Origin: Methylopila sp. M107
Lineage (GTDB): Bacteria > Pseudomonadota > Alphaproteobacteria > Rhizobiales > Methylopilaceae
Direction: 5' to 3'
NCBI RefSeq assembly: GCF_000384475.1
Contig: NZ_ARWB01000001.1
Coordinates: 62,001-126,000, forward strand
Length of the DNA: 64,000 bases
Shown here: positions 25,652-63,481 of the stretch, piece by piece
Numbering within the stretch: the first letter of the stretch is position 1
Layout: every line of letters begins with the position of its first letter
Program-made: the position numbers and the translations under genes
The notes under the pieces: model-generated
What the model saw: only the letters and a program-made list of their open reading frames with translations
What the model was told of the DNA's origin: nothing
The model's database searches: none

Positions 25652-25723
25652 TGTGTCGCTGCCCTCCTTGGGCGTTTCCTCCCTAGACTTGGGCCGTTCG
25701 CCTCGTGCGGACGGCCTTTTTTT
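25652..25723 (+). ncRNA. mmgR: MmgR/suhB (alpha-r8 family) small RNA
   Basis: About 72 nt. A small stem GCCC-TCCTT-GGGC (25661-25673) is followed by the unpaired ten-mer TTTCCTCCCT (25675-25684), then TAGACTTG and a terminator hairpin GGCCGT...ACGGCC (25692-25716) with seven T. This layout and the ten-mer are those of the alpha-r8 sRNA called MmgR in Sinorhizobium meliloti, listed in Rfam as suhB. The ten-mer is anti-Shine-Dalgarno-like and pairs with target messages; in S. meliloti it limits polyhydroxybutyrate granule formation. The 5' end is approximate. Confidence 0.85.
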
Positions 25724-25816
25724 ATTGGTCTTGTCCAGGCGCGGCGGAGATTGGCGTCACGCTCCGTCTTTTGCAAGGATTTTTCTATCATACGATCGGG
25801 CGAACGAAATCCGCCG

Positions 25817-27554: not shown

Positions 27555-27629
27555 GGGCGTATAGCTCAGCGGGAGAGCACTACCTTGACATGGTAGGGGT
27601 CACAGGTTCGATCCCTGTTACGCCCACCA
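27555..27629 (+). tRNA. tRNA-Val (anticodon GAC)
   Basis: A full cloverleaf: acceptor GGGCGTA/TACGCCC, D-arm GCTC...GAGC, anticodon stem CTACC/GGTAG with loop TTGACAT (anticodon GAC), T-arm ACAGG-TTCGATC-CCTGT, discriminator A and encoded CCA. Valine identity follows from the GAC anticodon. A Rho-independent terminator begins 13 bases later. Confidence 0.97.
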
Positions 27630-56754: not shown

Positions 56755-56852
56755 GCCGTCGATTCCAATGTCGACATGGACGCCCGCATCTGTAGGTTTG
56801 CCCGGTGGCGTCTCGCGTCATCGGTAAGAAGCATCCGAGCTGGGGATCGACA

Positions 56853-59351
56853 GTGGCGCTTTCCCGAATCGTCCGTGCGATCGCGACCGTTGCGGCGATG
56901 TTTCTCGCCGGGGACGCGCTGGCCGCGACGCCGGCCGAATGGGCGCGATGCGCCGCGACCGATCCCGAAGTCGCCATTCCCGCCTGCACGGCGATGATCG
57001 AGCGGAGCGCCGGCGACAGCAAGGCCAACCGCGCCATCATGCTGCGCAATCGGGGTCTCGGCTATCACAACAGGGGCAATTTCGATCTGGCGATCGCGGA
57101 CTACAACCGCTCCCTCGCGGTCGACCCGAAATACATCGAGGCGCTCAATTCCCGCGGCTTCAGCTTTCAGGCGAAAGGCGATCTCGACAGCGCGCTGGCC
57201 GACTACGAACGCGCGCTTGCGCTCAATCCGAAGCATCCCTTCGCGCTCGGCAATCGAGGCGATGTCTATCGCACGAAGGGCGCGCTCGACCTCGCCATCC
57301 GTGACTACGACCGGCTGATCGCGGTCAATCCGAAGCATGTCGACGCGTTCAACAGCCGCGGCTTCACCTACCAGCTGAAGGGCGACCGCGAGCGCGCGAT
57401 CGCGGATTTCGACCGCGCCCTCGCGCTGAACCCGGTCCACCAGAACGCGCTCGGCAACCGCGCCGACACATATCGGGCGATGGGCCAGCTGGACCGCGCA
57501 ATCGCGGATTACGACCAGTTGCTGGCGCTCAACCCGAAGCACGTCGCGGCGTACAACGCGCGCGGCTACGCCTATCAGCTGAAGGGCGACCTGGACCGCG
57601 CGATCGTCGACTTCGACCGGACCCTCGCGATGGATCCGAACCACGTCAACGCGCTCGGCAATCGCGGCGACGCCTATCGGGCGAAGGGCGATTTCGACCG
57701 CGCCATCGTGGACTACGACCGGCTGGTCGCGCTCAATCCGAAGCACGACGCCGCGTTCAACGCCCGCGGCTTCACCTATATGAAGAAGGGCGAGCTCGAT
57801 CGCGCGATCGCCGATTTCGACCAGGCGCTCGCGATCAATCCGAAGCAGGAGAGCGCGCTCGGCAATCGCGGCGACACCTATCGGACCAAGGGCGACCTCG
57901 TCCGCGCGCTCGCCGACTACGACCGGCTGATCGCCGTCAATCCGAGACATGACGGCGCGTTCAACGCCCGGGGCTACGTCTACAAGCTGAGGGGCGAGAC
58001 CGACCGCGCGCTGGCCGAGTTCGACCAGGCGCTCGCCATCAACCCGAAACAGGAGAACGCGCTCGGCAACCGGGCGGACATCTACCGTGAGAAGGGCGAC
58101 CAGACCCGCGCGATCGCGGACTACGACCGGCTGATCGCGATCAATCCGAGGCATGTCGAGGCGCTGAACAACCGTGGCACCTCGTACTGGGCCATGAACC
58201 AGTTGGACCGTGCGATCGCGGATTTCGACCGGGCGCTTGCGATCAATCCCAAGCATCCGCATTCGCTCAACAATCGGGGCTTCGTCTATCAGGCGAAGGG
58301 CGACCTGACCCGCGCGCTCTCCGATTTCGACCGCGCCATGGAGTACAGCCCGGGCTTCGCCTCGCGCCTCTCGTTGCGGCTCGGGCGCGCCCGGCTGTTC
58401 CGCGATCTTGGCCGCCCGGCCGACGCGAGGGCCGAATTCGACGCCGCGCTCGCCATTTCGCCCGACAGCGCGGAAGCCCGGCGGGAGCGCGACGCGCTGG
58501 GAAGCGGGAGCGCCGGATCGCAGGTCGCGGGCGTCAGGCCCGCGCCGCAGCCGTCCGCTCAGGCCGCCGCCGCGGAATCGACCGCGAAGCCCGCCATTCC
58601 GCGGCGCATTGCGCTGGTCGTGGGCAACGGCGCCTATGCCGAGGTGCCGACGCTCAGGAACCCGACCGCCGACGCCCGCGCGATCGGCGACAAGCTCAGG
58701 ACCAAGGGATTTGAGGTCACCCTGACGCTCGACGCCGGCCGCTCGGCCATGCTGCGCTCGATCGACGGCTTCCTGCGCTCGATCACCAAGGACGCCGAGG
58801 TTCTGGTCTATTACGCCGGCCACGGGGTCGAGTTCGACGGCGCGAACTACATCGTGCCGGTCGACATGCCGGCCTTCTCGGCCGACGCCGAGCAGTTGAT
58901 CAAGGACAACTCAGTCAACCTGAATTCGCTGCTGGTCGAGATCGGACGGCGCAAGAGCGGCGCCGCCGTCGTCATCCTCGACGCCTGCCGCGACAACCCG
59001 TTCCGATCCGTGCAGGTCGCGGGTCTCAGCCGCAGCATCGGCGGCAAGGACGGGCTCGCCCCGGTCGCGGCCCCGCGCGGCGTCTACGTGCTTTATTCGG
59101 CCGGCGTAAACCAGAAGGCGCTGGACAGGCTCAGCATGGACGACGCCGACCCGAATGGCCTGTTCACCCGCAAGCTCCTGCCGCTGATGGACCAGGAGGG
59201 GCTGGAGATCCGCACGCTCGCGACGCGACTCAGGCGCGAGGTCAGCGCGGCCGCCCGCACGGTGACGATCACCGACAAGGAAGGCCACGACCAGTCGCCG
59301 GCCTCCTACGACCAGATGGACGGCGATTTTTACTTCACGCCCGCGAGGTGA
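56853..59351 (+). CDS. TPR-caspase (peptidase C14) protein, secreted
   Basis: About 832 residues from GTG at 56853 (an open frame from 56805 is possible). A signal peptide (VALSRIVRAIATVAAMFLAG...LAA) precedes about 14 TPR units of 34 residues (nucleotides about 57048-58475), which alternate between two types to make a 68-residue period. A Pro/Ala linker then leads to a caspase-like domain (about 590-830) with RIALVVGNGAYAEV, the His of VYYAGHGVEF and Cys of VILDACRDNPF, the C14 dyad. TPR-caspase proteins are periplasmic or envelope proteins; substrates are unknown. The gene has no cotranscribed partner. Confidence 0.9.
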   Translation: MALSRIVRAIATVAAMFLAGDALAATPAEWARCAATDPEVAIPACTAMIERSAGDSKANRAIMLRNRGLGYHNRGNFDLAIADYNRSLAVDPKYIEALNSRGFSFQAKGDLDSALADYERALALNPKHPFALGNRGDVYRTKGALDLAIRDYDRLIAVNPKHVDAFNSRGFTYQLKGDRERAIADFDRALALNPVHQNALGNRADTYRAMGQLDRAIADYDQLLALNPKHVAAYNARGYAYQLKGDLDRAIVDFDRTLAMDPNHVNALGNRGDAYRAKGDFDRAIVDYDRLVALNPKHDAAFNARGFTYMKKGELDRAIADFDQALAINPKQESALGNRGDTYRTKGDLVRALADYDRLIAVNPRHDGAFNARGYVYKLRGETDRALAEFDQALAINPKQENALGNRADIYREKGDQTRAIADYDRLIAINPRHVEALNNRGTSYWAMNQLDRAIADFDRALAINPKHPHSLNNRGFVYQAKGDLTRALSDFDRAMEYSPGFASRLSLRLGRARLFRDLGRPADARAEFDAALAISPDSAEARRERDALGSGSAGSQVAGVRPAPQPSAQAAAAESTAKPAIPRRIALVVGNGAYAEVPTLRNPTADARAIGDKLRTKGFEVTLTLDAGRSAMLRSIDGFLRSITKDAEVLVYYAGHGVEFDGANYIVPVDMPAFSADAEQLIKDNSVNLNSLLVEIGRRKSGAAVVILDACRDNPFRSVQVAGLSRSIGGKDGLAPVAAPRGVYVLYSAGVNQKALDRLSMDDADPNGLFTRKLLPLMDQEGLEIRTLATRLRREVSAAARTVTITDKEGHDQSPASYDQMDGDFYFTPAR
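57048..58475 (+). repeat. Tandem TPR-coding repeat, 102 bp units in a 204 bp super-period
   Basis: Fourteen units of 34 codons. Even-numbered units begin with an N-x-R-G-F/Y motif and carry FDxALAINPK; the others begin GNRxDxYR and carry YDRLIAxNPxH. The alternation gives an exact 68-residue (204-base) period. The DNA is similar enough between units to allow recombination. Confidence 0.85.
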
Positions 59352-59387: not shown

Positions 59388-60275
59388 TCATGACCTGACC
59401 TTCGCGGTCAGGTCGTCGACGGCGCGGCGGGCGTCGTCGATGTCGGGGGCGTCGATGCGCCGCCAGAGCGCCTGGACGACGCAGAACGCGCCGAACGCCG
59501 CGAGCCCGGCCGCGACGATCGCGAGCAGCGCCCAGCCGTAGGGCTGCTCCTCGAGCGCCTCCAGCGCGCCGCCGAGCCCCTTGGCCTCGCGCGAGTCGAC
59601 GCGGATGGCGGCGACGATCAGGAAGGCGCCGATCATCCCGAAGGTGACGCCGCGCGCCGCATAACCGAGCCGGCCGAGCATCCGCGCAAGGTCGCGGCGA
59701 GCGGGCGGCGCGTGGAGGCGCTTCATGACGTCGCCCTTCCAGCCCTTCCAGACGTGATAGGCGCCGCCTCCGAGGATCGCGAGACCGACCGCGCCGACCA
59801 GCCATCGGCCGAAGGGCTGCGTCAGCAGCCATGCGGTCCAGTCCTTCGCGGAATCGTCGTCGCCGCCGACCGCGCCGGTCCCGAGCGCGAGATGAAACGC
59901 GGTGAGGGCGAGAGCGCCGTTCACGAGGCCGCTCAACGCGTGCAGGACGCGCGTGAAGAGCCCCTTGGCCGAGCTTCCATGATCGTCGGCGTCGACCAGC
60001 GCGCTCACGATGCGCCATGCGGCGAAGAACACGAGGCCGAGGCCTACCGCTCCGAGCAGGATCGCCCCGAAGGGCTGCGTGACGAGCGATTTGAGCGCGC
60101 TCTTGCCGCCGCCGACGTCGCCCATGCCGGAGCCGATCGCGGCGAGCAGAGCGAGCGCCCCCACGAGGATGTAGACAGCGCCGCGCGCCGCAAAGCCCGC
60201 GCGGGCGAAGTGCTCGAGGCTCAGACGGCGGGATGGATTGAGGACGGCGGCATGCATTCGGTCATCGCTCCGCAT
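59388..60275 (-). CDS. DUF1206 membrane protein
   Basis: A 295-residue protein with six hydrophobic segments arranged as three repeats, each starting FARAGFAARGAVYI-, FTRVLHALSGLVNG-like or GRLGYAARGVTFG- and containing QPFG. This is the DUF1206 pattern. Function is unknown. It is convergent with the TPR-caspase gene, and an ATG at 60257 is an alternative start. Confidence 0.88.
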   Translation of the reverse strand: MRSDDRMHAAVLNPSRRLSLEHFARAGFAARGAVYILVGALALLAAIGSGMGDVGGGKSALKSLVTQPFGAILLGAVGLGLVFFAAWRIVSALVDADDHGSSAKGLFTRVLHALSGLVNGALALTAFHLALGTGAVGGDDDSAKDWTAWLLTQPFGRWLVGAVGLAILGGGAYHVWKGWKGDVMKRLHAPPARRDLARMLGRLGYAARGVTFGMIGAFLIVAAIRVDSREAKGLGGALEALEEQPYGWALLAIVAAGLAAFGAFCVVQALWRRIDAPDIDDARRAVDDLTAKVRS

Positions 60276-60356: not shown

Positions 60357-60489
60357 TCACCTCTCCCCGCAGGGGAGAGGTCGCGAGGCGAAGCCGAAGC
60401 GGGTGAGGGGGATCGGGCTTCTCCGGAGAGAGCGAGACCCCCTCACCCGGCGCTGACGCGCCGACCTCTCCCCGAAGGGGGAGAGGTGC
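60357..60489. repeat. Type B palindromic repeat copy
   Basis: Arms CACCTCTCCCC...GGGGAGAGGTG, with inner CGGGTGAGGGGG/CCCCCTCACCCG. It fills most of the gap from the DUF1206 start to the small leader ORF promoter. Confidence 0.8.
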
Positions 60490-60525
60490 AGGGCCGTCGC
60501 GCTTCTCGGCGATTGTTCCACCGGC

Positions 60526-60554
60526 TTGCGCGGCGGCCGAGGCGCTCCCATACT
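60526..60554 (+). promoter_or_regulatory. Candidate sigma-70 promoter for the small leader transcript
   Basis: TTGCGC (60526-60531), a 17-base spacer, CATACT (60549-60554). The start point would be near 60561, about 30 bases before the GTG at 60590. Hexamers are one or two bases off consensus. Confidence 0.5.
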
Positions 60555-60589
60555 CCCCGCGTCGTCAACAACCGAAAGGAGGTGATCCA

Positions 60590-60664
60590 GTGATCTCATT
60601 GTCACGATCCGCGCTTGGAAAGTGCTGCGGCCTGGATTTCCGCCGGTGCGGAGATCTCGCCTGA
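60590..60664 (+). CDS. 24-codon ORF with a full-length anti-16S Shine-Dalgarno
   Basis: GTG-initiated peptide starting MISLSRSALGKCCGLDFRRC, 24 residues, with three Cys and five basic residues. Immediately before it, GAAAGGAGGTGATCCAG (60574-60590) is complementary to 17 bases of the alphaproteobacterial 16S 3' end, far more than a normal Shine-Dalgarno, and the GGAGG core is 7 bases from the GTG. A candidate promoter lies upstream and a hairpin (60718-60749) follows, 90 bases before prpE. It may be a leader peptide or the coding part of a short RNA. I cannot name a family. Confidence 0.6.
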   Translation: MISLSRSALGKCCGLDFRRCGDLA

Positions 60665-60717
60665 TCTCGATCGCAGGCGAAGGTCGTCGGTTCTTGAACA
60701 CCGCGATCTTGAGAATG

Positions 60718-60749
60718 GGAGGGGTCGTCGCGCATGCGGCGGCCCCTCC
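60718..60749 (+). terminator. Hairpin between leader ORF and prpE (terminator or attenuator)
   Basis: GGAGGGG/CCCCTCC outer stem with inner CG-CGC/GCG-CG pairing over a GCATGC centre. Only TCATTT follows, so termination strength is unclear; an attenuator ahead of prpE is possible. Confidence 0.5.
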
Positions 60750-60838
60750 GTCATTTCGATCGATGGCGGACGGCTTGTCCGCGCGCTAAAATGCCGGGAC
60801 ACAACAAGCGGCCGAAGCCGCGATCCGGGGAAACGACC

Positions 60839-62773: not shown

Positions 62774-63481
62774 TCACCGCCGGCCGCGGTGATCGTCGTC
62801 GTCGTCCTCGTCGGTCTCGTCGCGCTTGAGCTGCTTGAGCTTGGCGAAGACGCTCTCGACGTCGAGGTCGCCGGCGCCCTCGCGGGTGGTCTCCTCCGCC
62901 GACAGCAGGGTCTGCTCCTCGGGCTCCTCCTCGCGCCGGATGACGGCGTCGGGGTTCGCCTTGGCGCCCTTCGAGACCTCGAAGTCGAGGTCGATCTGCG
63001 AGCAGAGGCCGAGCGTCACCGGGTCCATGGGCGTCAGGTTCTGGGCGTTCCAGTGCGTCCGGTCGCGGATCGCCGCGATCGTGGTCTTGGTGGTGCCGAC
63101 GAGGCGCATCACCTGGCTGTCCTTCAGCTCAGGATGGTTGCGCACGAGCCAGAGGATGGCGTTCGGCCGGTCCTGGCGGCGCGACACCGGCGTGTAGCGC
63201 GGGCCCTTGCGCGGCTTCACTGGCGGCAGGCGCACCTTGGAGACGAGCAGCTGAAGCCGGTAGTCGCCGTTCTTCTGGCCCTTCTCGATCTCCTCGCGGG
63301 TCAGCTGGCCGTTGGTGATCGGATCATGCCCGCGGATGCCCTGCGCGGCGTCGCCGTCGGCCACAGCCTTCACCTCGAGCTCGTGCAGCTTGCAGAAGTC
63401 GGCGATCTGGGCGAACGACAGCGAGGTGTTCTCGACGAGCCAGACCGCGGTCGCCTTCGGCATCAGCGGCGCGTTCGACAT
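62774..63481 (-). CDS. trcR: Cell-cycle transcriptional regulator TrcR (DUF1013)
   Basis: A 235-residue DUF1013 protein. MPKATAVWLVENTSLSFAQIADFCKLHELEVKAVADG start, NAILWLVRNHPELKDSQVMRLVGTTKTTIAAIRDRTHWN contains a helix-turn-helix-like region, and the C-terminal third is acidic. DUF1013 is confined to alphaproteobacteria and has been named TrcR for a role with the CtrA cell-cycle network. Start at 63481 with AGGAGA upstream; frame extension to 63739 is unlikely. Confidence 0.9.
   Translation of the reverse strand: MSNAPLMPKATAVWLVENTSLSFAQIADFCKLHELEVKAVADGDAAQGIRGHDPITNGQLTREEIEKGQKNGDYRLQLLVSKVRLPPVKPRKGPRYTPVSRRQDRPNAILWLVRNHPELKDSQVMRLVGTTKTTIAAIRDRTHWNAQNLTPMDPVTLGLCSQIDLDFEVSKGAKANPDAVIRREEEPEEQTLLSAEETTREGAGDLDVESVFAKLKQLKRDETDEDDDDDHRGRR

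Follow-up and report, generated by a model that had tools for sequence, protein, structure and literature searches.

The window analysed here, a stretch of 64,000 nucleotides from Methylopila sp. M107, contains a short element in which an extended Shine–Dalgarno (SD) sequence, complementary to 17 nucleotides at the 3' end of 16S rRNA, runs into a 24-codon open reading frame (ORF). The architecture of the element is well supported. Among its relatives the sequence is conserved, the length of the ORF is constrained, the peptide is constrained weakly, two helices covary and no neighbours are conserved. These properties suggest an RNA that responds to free ribosome subunits; they point away from a gene for a peptide and from a switch acting on the adjacent gene. 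We propose, giving the proposal about an even chance, that the element acts as an independent RNA of the RF01867 kind, that a pseudoknot holds its start codon until the 16S tail opens it, and that it captures or reports free 30S subunits.

Kinship with RF01867 and distribution of the element

Judged from its sequence, the window element is firmly assigned as a divergent relative of Rfam family RF01867 (CC2171, a Caulobacter sRNA). The match runs end to end (model positions 1–159) and scores 54.5 bits (E 7.8e-11), where the gathering cut-off is 75; the Rfam search at gathering scores missed the window copy. Eight relatives were run against Rfam; six scored above the cut-off (for instance L052 with 91.5 and L014 with 84.2 bits) and two, L055 and L063, below it. 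Because the match is full-length and six of the eight relatives exceed the cut-off, we regard the homology as firm despite the low formal score. Matches to RF01867 were present in all 13 of the 13 genomes of the genus, one in each and none at the cut-off, and in 61 of 289 genomes of the class, nine of them above it; from these 61 genomes, 30 matches were taken as loci and read. The RF01867 consensus shares with the window element the SD block, the helix that we call H2 (its counterpart in the consensus is CAUUGUC:GACAAUG, before the final stem-loop) and the final stem-loop itself. It differs from the proposed element in having no H1.

The open-access literature on RF01867 yielded no function, no ORF and no link to 16S rRNA. 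A Mesorhizobium table lists the family with a 215-nt RNA-seq product (PMC5596092), and RF01867 is among the families whose Rfam structures were improved by covariation (PMC11701678). In ribosome profiling of Caulobacter, intergenic ncRNAs were described as untranslated save two that had been predicted earlier, and CC2171 is possibly among these (PMC4117421); the finding counts against translation of the short ORF. In the literature found, neither the 16S-tail logic nor the ORF with little constraint on its peptide nor H1 was described.

Within the order, 199 genomes were searched by blastn with the block; 48 gave a match, which spanned the anti-16S site in 46 and was confined to the later part in G012 and G108. 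Of 385 genomes of the class, 77 contain the pattern GAAAGGAGGTGATCCNRTGTC with at most one mismatch. The same pattern was found in 71 of the 398 genomes of a phylum sample, all of these within the 135 of the same class and none among the other 263, and the reversed control gave 0. The window copy itself escapes the pattern because of an extra A. Titles, available for 80 of the 120 stretches with exact-pattern matches, included Hyphomicrobiales, Acetobacteraceae, Brevundimonas and Rhodospirillales. The sequence-only reading had proposed a search for the block ahead of other genes in Hyphomicrobiales; it was found there, and well beyond that order. Three single cases are of note. L104 is a metagenome-assembled genome labelled Ramlibacter, perhaps mis-binned; L193, from the same genus as the window strain, and Hansschlegelia zhihuaiae (L073) share one and the same sequence of the element between -60 and +180; and G210 has two copies, one with GATCGAATG and the other with GATCCGATG.

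Two sets of copies were used. The ORF set consisted of 172 distinct copies, identical ones being counted once, of which 110 came from the exact pattern. Left aside were L001, L032–L034 and L172, which either repeat the window copy or are chance sites; L086, L100, L105, L110 and L139 had no full copy, being cut by contig ends, and L197–L246 were left out of the analysis. The tests of H1, H2, neighbours, promoter and hairpins were performed on the 134 copies left after removal of near-copies. The exact-pattern regular expression fixes AAGGAGG, G-6, T-4, C-3 and a purine-T-G start, so conservation at these positions is partly imposed. It also excludes TTG starts, which are found in G216, G445 and G530 among the GAAAGGAGGTGATCCNRTGTC matches.

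The 16S complement, the short frame and two crossing helices

The features of the element are collected in Table 1.

Table 1. Features of the element, in window positions
Feature	Position	Strand	Basis
Putative transcript	60561–60757	+	Ends inferred; contains the RF01867 match, 60566–60746
Promoter-like pair TTGCGC, CATACT, spaced by 17 nt	60526–60531, 60549–60554	+	Sequence; position common to relatives
Extended SD GAAAGGAGGTGATCCAG, 17-nt complement of the 16S 3' end	60574–60590	+	Sequence, pairing energy
ORF, GTG start, 24 codons, TGA stop	60590–60664	+	Frame length kept in 170/172 copies
Extra A after start codon	60593	+	Missing from 12 same-genus copies
H1 5' arm GATCCAG, takes in first base of start codon	60584–60590	+	Covariation
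H1 3' arm CTGGATT, copy of the 16S end within the ORF	60632–60638	+	Covariation
H2 5' arm TCTCATT	60594–60600	+	Covariation; its CAUU/AAUG in predicted fold
H2 3' arm AATGGGA, overlapping the stem-loop foot	60714–60720	+	Covariation
Terminator-like stem-loop GGAGGGGTCGTCGC GCAT GCGGCGGCCCCTCC, weak T tract	60718–60749	+	Sequence, fold

The 17-base anti-16S site that had been claimed is present. The 3' end used as the 16S reference is found exactly in plasmid-borne rRNA operons of named alphaproteobacteria. Since RF00177 had no match in the genome assembly of the window strain, the complementarity is to the 16S rRNA of its relatives. The 15-base core AAAGGAGGTGATCCA occurs once in the 4.45-Mb genome (reversed control 0), and the 17-mer would be expected in 0.0005 copies under a uniform model. 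Pairing of the 17-mer with the 16S end was calculated at -32.2 kcal/mol; its ten-base 5' part, which lies outside H1 and is a candidate toehold, contributes a pairing of -15.0 kcal/mol. The complement was near-invariant in the 55 copies outside the exact pattern, at positions that the search expression leaves unconstrained (G-16 in 100%, A-15 in 98% and C-2 in 95%). The conservation expected among relatives was found for the SD and hardly for the peptide, which is nearly unconstrained; the near-invariant stretch of the element is the complement of the 16S tail together with the context of the start codon. An SD is present in only 24.6% of Caulobacter coding sequences (PMC4117421), against which a near-invariant match to the whole 16S tail stands out. 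In E. coli, lengthening of the SD helix close to the start codon is reportedly impeded by protein bS21 (PMC13009471), which speaks against the proposal.

The claimed 24-codon ORF was likewise confirmed. An ORF of 18–30 codons was open in frame 0 in 170 of the 172 distinct copies, compared to 17 in frame +1 and 36 in frame +2. The 62 copies outside the exact pattern gave the same picture: frame 0 held such an ORF in all 62 and frames +1 and +2 in 3 and 9, with the start codon (GTG in 47, ATG in 15) at one place.

H1, in its family form, pairs GATCCNG of the SD, running into the start codon, with CN'GGATC in the ORF, where the 16S end recurs as a CUGGAUC-like copy. The 134 copies include 122 GTG rows, in which the N/N' position was A-T in 81, G-C in 10, C-G in 2, T-A in 1 and G-T in 1, and it was unpaired in the remaining 27 (A-C 14, A-G 4, T-T 4, C-C 2, T-C 2, G-A 1). 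The association of A/G with T/C gave a Fisher p of 6e-7, an inexact value, as are the covariation p values generally, because the rows are related and not independent. H1 pairing was 86%, compared to 10–57% when the 3' arm was shifted by 1–6 bases, and 7-mer pairing at at least 6 of 7 positions was found in 120 of the 134 copies against a null of 66.9 (sd 5.5). Pairing between the SD segment and the ORF was better than in shuffles (mean z -1.68; 0.07 and 0.17 in control regions). The energy of H1 is -9.3 kcal/mol, and that of the window's own H1 -7.7 kcal/mol. In some further copies, H1 lies in another reading frame.

H2 pairs codons 3–5 with the segment before the stem-loop, in the window with seven pairs of which one is G-U. 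Distant copies swap both arms (ATGAGAT/ATCTCAT in L176, CGAGATC/GATCTCG in L182), and the unfiltered test on the 134 copies against mononucleotide shuffles gave a mean z of 1.28, with 70% above 1. The two helices were evaluated jointly on an alignment of 76 copies, drawn from the 106 that had passed a filter on H2 score and spacing, a selection biased towards H2 and not towards H1. It held 50 double-change cells, compared to 11.8 (sd 2.8) after shuffling, a level reached in 0 of 500 shuffles, and pairing was 90%, compared to 21–45% when slid by 1–3 columns. By this alignment comparison, the two helices cross each other and covary; neither they nor the Rfam family figured in the sequence-only reading. 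In the window RNA, the nested minimum-energy fold contained part of H2 and not H1, an absence that is to be expected of a pseudoknot, yet gives H1 no support. The two helices may also be alternatives instead of a pseudoknot. Two other candidate pairings were rejected: pairing of the later ORF with the SD core GAAAGGAGGT, which would mask it, was weak (mean z -0.80, 124 of 134 copies), and additional hairpins within the ORF reached z of only -0.42 and -0.56.

The putative transcript folded better than 200 of 200 shuffles (z -4.3). The sigma-70-like promoter of the sequence-only reading stands in part: a pair resembling -35 and -10 elements lies where relatives have theirs, while a consensus scan of the window reported no sigma-70 site at the element. 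In 108 of the 134 copies, the best -10-like hexamer was 32–38 nt upstream of the start codon, a count made without a shuffle control. The stem-loop that had been noted at the other end is indeed strong, and the corresponding region of the relatives gave z -5.1 (114 of 134 copies); it is absent from the terminator list of the consensus scan because of its poor T tract. Directly upstream of the promoter, at 60361–60490, two palindromic repeats, CCCTCACCCG..CGACCTCTCCCC, face each other as a REP-like element. The repeat pattern has 53 plus 48 occurrences in the genome, often as facing pairs (reversed control 0).

Peptide, neighbours and other readings of the element

That the element is a strongly translated mini-gene, with a functional peptide of 22–25 residues (MSHCxxPR...TWIxAS...A) as its product, is unlikely in our estimate. 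Such a gene would account for the retention of the ORF and start codon, and codon 2 encodes Ser in 168 of 172 copies, though mostly by one codon (TCT in 163). The last residue is Ala in 73 of the 134 copies (GCC 39, GCG 25, GCT 5, GCA 4), and this terminal Ala (60659–60661 in the window) is reached through all four GCN codons, though the remaining peptide drifts. There were 77 synonymous changes where 65.2 (sd 6.3) were expected, and 12 of 300 nulls had at least as many. The slight synonymous excess and the Ala ending with its mixed third bases make some selection on the peptide possible; from these sequence comparisons it is weak at most. Against a peptide gene, third-position changes were not enriched (77, 83 and 85 substitutions at codon positions 1, 2 and 3 in 34 disjoint close pairs), and the conserved residues coincide with the helices: His3-Cys4 lie in H2, and Trp, which is replaced by Arg or Gly where H1 covaries, lies in H1; the further copies with H1 in another frame argue in the same direction. 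Paired indels also alter the frame between start and stop. Among the 172 copies, the extra A after the start codon is found only in L002, the window copy, and L008, and the window ORF has one base fewer near its end than L193, L194 and L196. These two compensating indels place 18 codons in another frame and leave the start and stop codons as they were, along with the closing residues CGDLA that L194 and L196 also have; L008, from another family, has the same extra A, compensated earlier. The Cys-rich peptide of the sequence-only reading was thus translated correctly, and it is a frameshift product, in a frame other than that of the 12 same-genus copies, and not the peptide of the family. As the product of the element it was rejected.

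The remaining readings concern what the SD or the RNA would act upon. That the RNA is non-coding and acts on the 16S end as an antisense, or helps to guard or process it, with the ORF as a by-product, is improbable: the complement does cover the whole 3' tail and exceeds what initiation needs, but a by-product would have no need of the start codon and frame length that 170 of 172 copies retain. CrfA in Caulobacter is a sponge for sRNAs with an anti-SD motif (PMC12559287), and the window contains at 25654–25731 (+) an sRNA of the alphaR8 type (RF00519, suhB/mmgR, 70.6 bits) with a UUUCCUCCCU core; a tRNA gene lies at 27555–27626. A sponge for sRNAs such as alphaR8/MmgR is nevertheless very unlikely here. 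The SD core can pair with CCUCC motifs, and the 15-mer pairs with the mmgR of the window at -14.3 kcal/mol, but this is the level of chance, equalled by 66 of 500 shuffled mmgR sequences and 58 of 500 random window pieces, and the alphaR8 core gives -8.7 kcal/mol compared to -28.0 for the 16S end. The MmgR sponge was rejected for this want of specific complementarity. Finally, attenuation of the CoA-ligase gene downstream (prpE) by a translated leader has in its favour that the element is directly upstream on the same strand, with the stem-loop in between. Its neighbours are not conserved: naive calls gave 245 flanking ORFs in the 134 copies, which fell into 199 blast clusters, the largest of 6, and right-hand neighbours were on the minus strand in 65 and on the plus strand in 57 (n = 122). 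With no downstream gene recurring and orientation near even, a prpE leader is extremely improbable, and the attenuation that had been suggested was not borne out. The element is a stand-alone unit, in agreement with the other suggestion, an independent module of about 190 nt; its exceptional anti-16S site is upheld together with it, conserved well beyond Hyphomicrobiales. The name prpE holds insofar as the downstream gene encodes a propionate/acetate-CoA ligase whose best NCBIfam match is propionate--CoA ligase, at 748.5 bits and so under the curated cut-off of 955. A DUF188/YaiI-like downstream neighbour as a rule was rejected as well, as the largest right-hand cluster has only 6 members.

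Other genes lie nearby in the window. A DUF1206 protein (PF06724) at 59388–60275 (-) is divergent from the element and is the left neighbour also in L013, L073 and L194. An 848-residue TPR-repeat protein with a C-terminal caspase domain (PF00656, residues 600–842) is encoded at 56805–59351 (+), and a TrcR-family protein (PF06242, 218.1 bits), listed as a transcriptional cell cycle regulator, at 62774–63481 (-).

Proposed opening of the start codon by the 16S tail

The helices vary in their letters and still pair, while the 16S complement and the start context stay, which makes the ribosome the evident partner of a stand-alone RNA. Its layout is that of a toehold followed by a displacement domain: after the first ten bases, the internal copy of the 16S end competes with the 16S tail for pairing. 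As long as the RNA is free, its start codon would lie within the pseudoknot of H1 and H2. The 16S 3' tail of a 30S subunit would pair first with the ten SD bases outside H1 and would then displace the internal copy from the next bases, freeing the start codon. The subunit would initiate, and some 24 codons of indifferent sequence would be translated, through the 3' arm of H1; translation would halt short of the 3' arm of H2 (median offset 113 nt) and the RNA could refold. The simultaneous formation of H1 and H2, the strand displacement and translation in the cell are steps that we infer. Any use of the two states, open and closed, to gauge, buffer or store 30S subunits in the cell is a guess. 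Among the roles offered by the sequence-only reading, the sequestering or measuring of 30S subunits fits best.

The sequence of docking, displacement, initiation, short translation and refolding is proposed by analogy with E. coli rpsO, whose mRNA docks on the 30S subunit through its SD before its pseudoknot unfolds (PMC3858243). In the published accounts of rpsO that bear on this point, the SD is accessible, a pseudoknot holds the start of the coding sequence and 30S docking precedes unfolding, as would be the case in the element; rpsO differs as a cis regulator of a protein gene, with S15 as the ligand (PMC3858243, PMC8470358). The element, in contrast, has no conserved downstream gene and no known ligand, and the strand to be displaced repeats the 16S end. 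The gene downstream in the window encodes a CoA ligase and not, as in the rpsO type, a ribosomal protein, and neighbours vary. The extended SD sites described in Staphylococcus aureus also extend SD pairing toward the start codon, but serve start-codon choice in ordinary mRNAs (PMC13009471); in the element, the match takes in almost all of the 16S tail, and the very small ORF belongs to no larger mRNA.

Synthetic toehold switches operate by binding at a toehold, followed by strand displacement that frees the start codon. The element would differ from these in being natural and in having the 16S tail as its proposed trigger. Tentatively, as a possibility that we hold with less than even confidence, we suggest that it is a natural toehold switch triggered by the 16S tail, made up of the complement and the internal copy, in which the 24-codon ORF serves as a ribosome-driven reset and which, spread over a single class, gauges or buffers free 30S subunits in bacteria that make sparing use of SD sites.

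Should the proposal hold, RF01867, the family for which we found no function in the literature, would become a ribosome-facing regulator, through which the sensing or buffering of free 30S subunits in alphaproteobacteria could be approached. Displacement by rRNA would then have a natural example, and the short ORF would be one retained because it is translated more than because of what it encodes.
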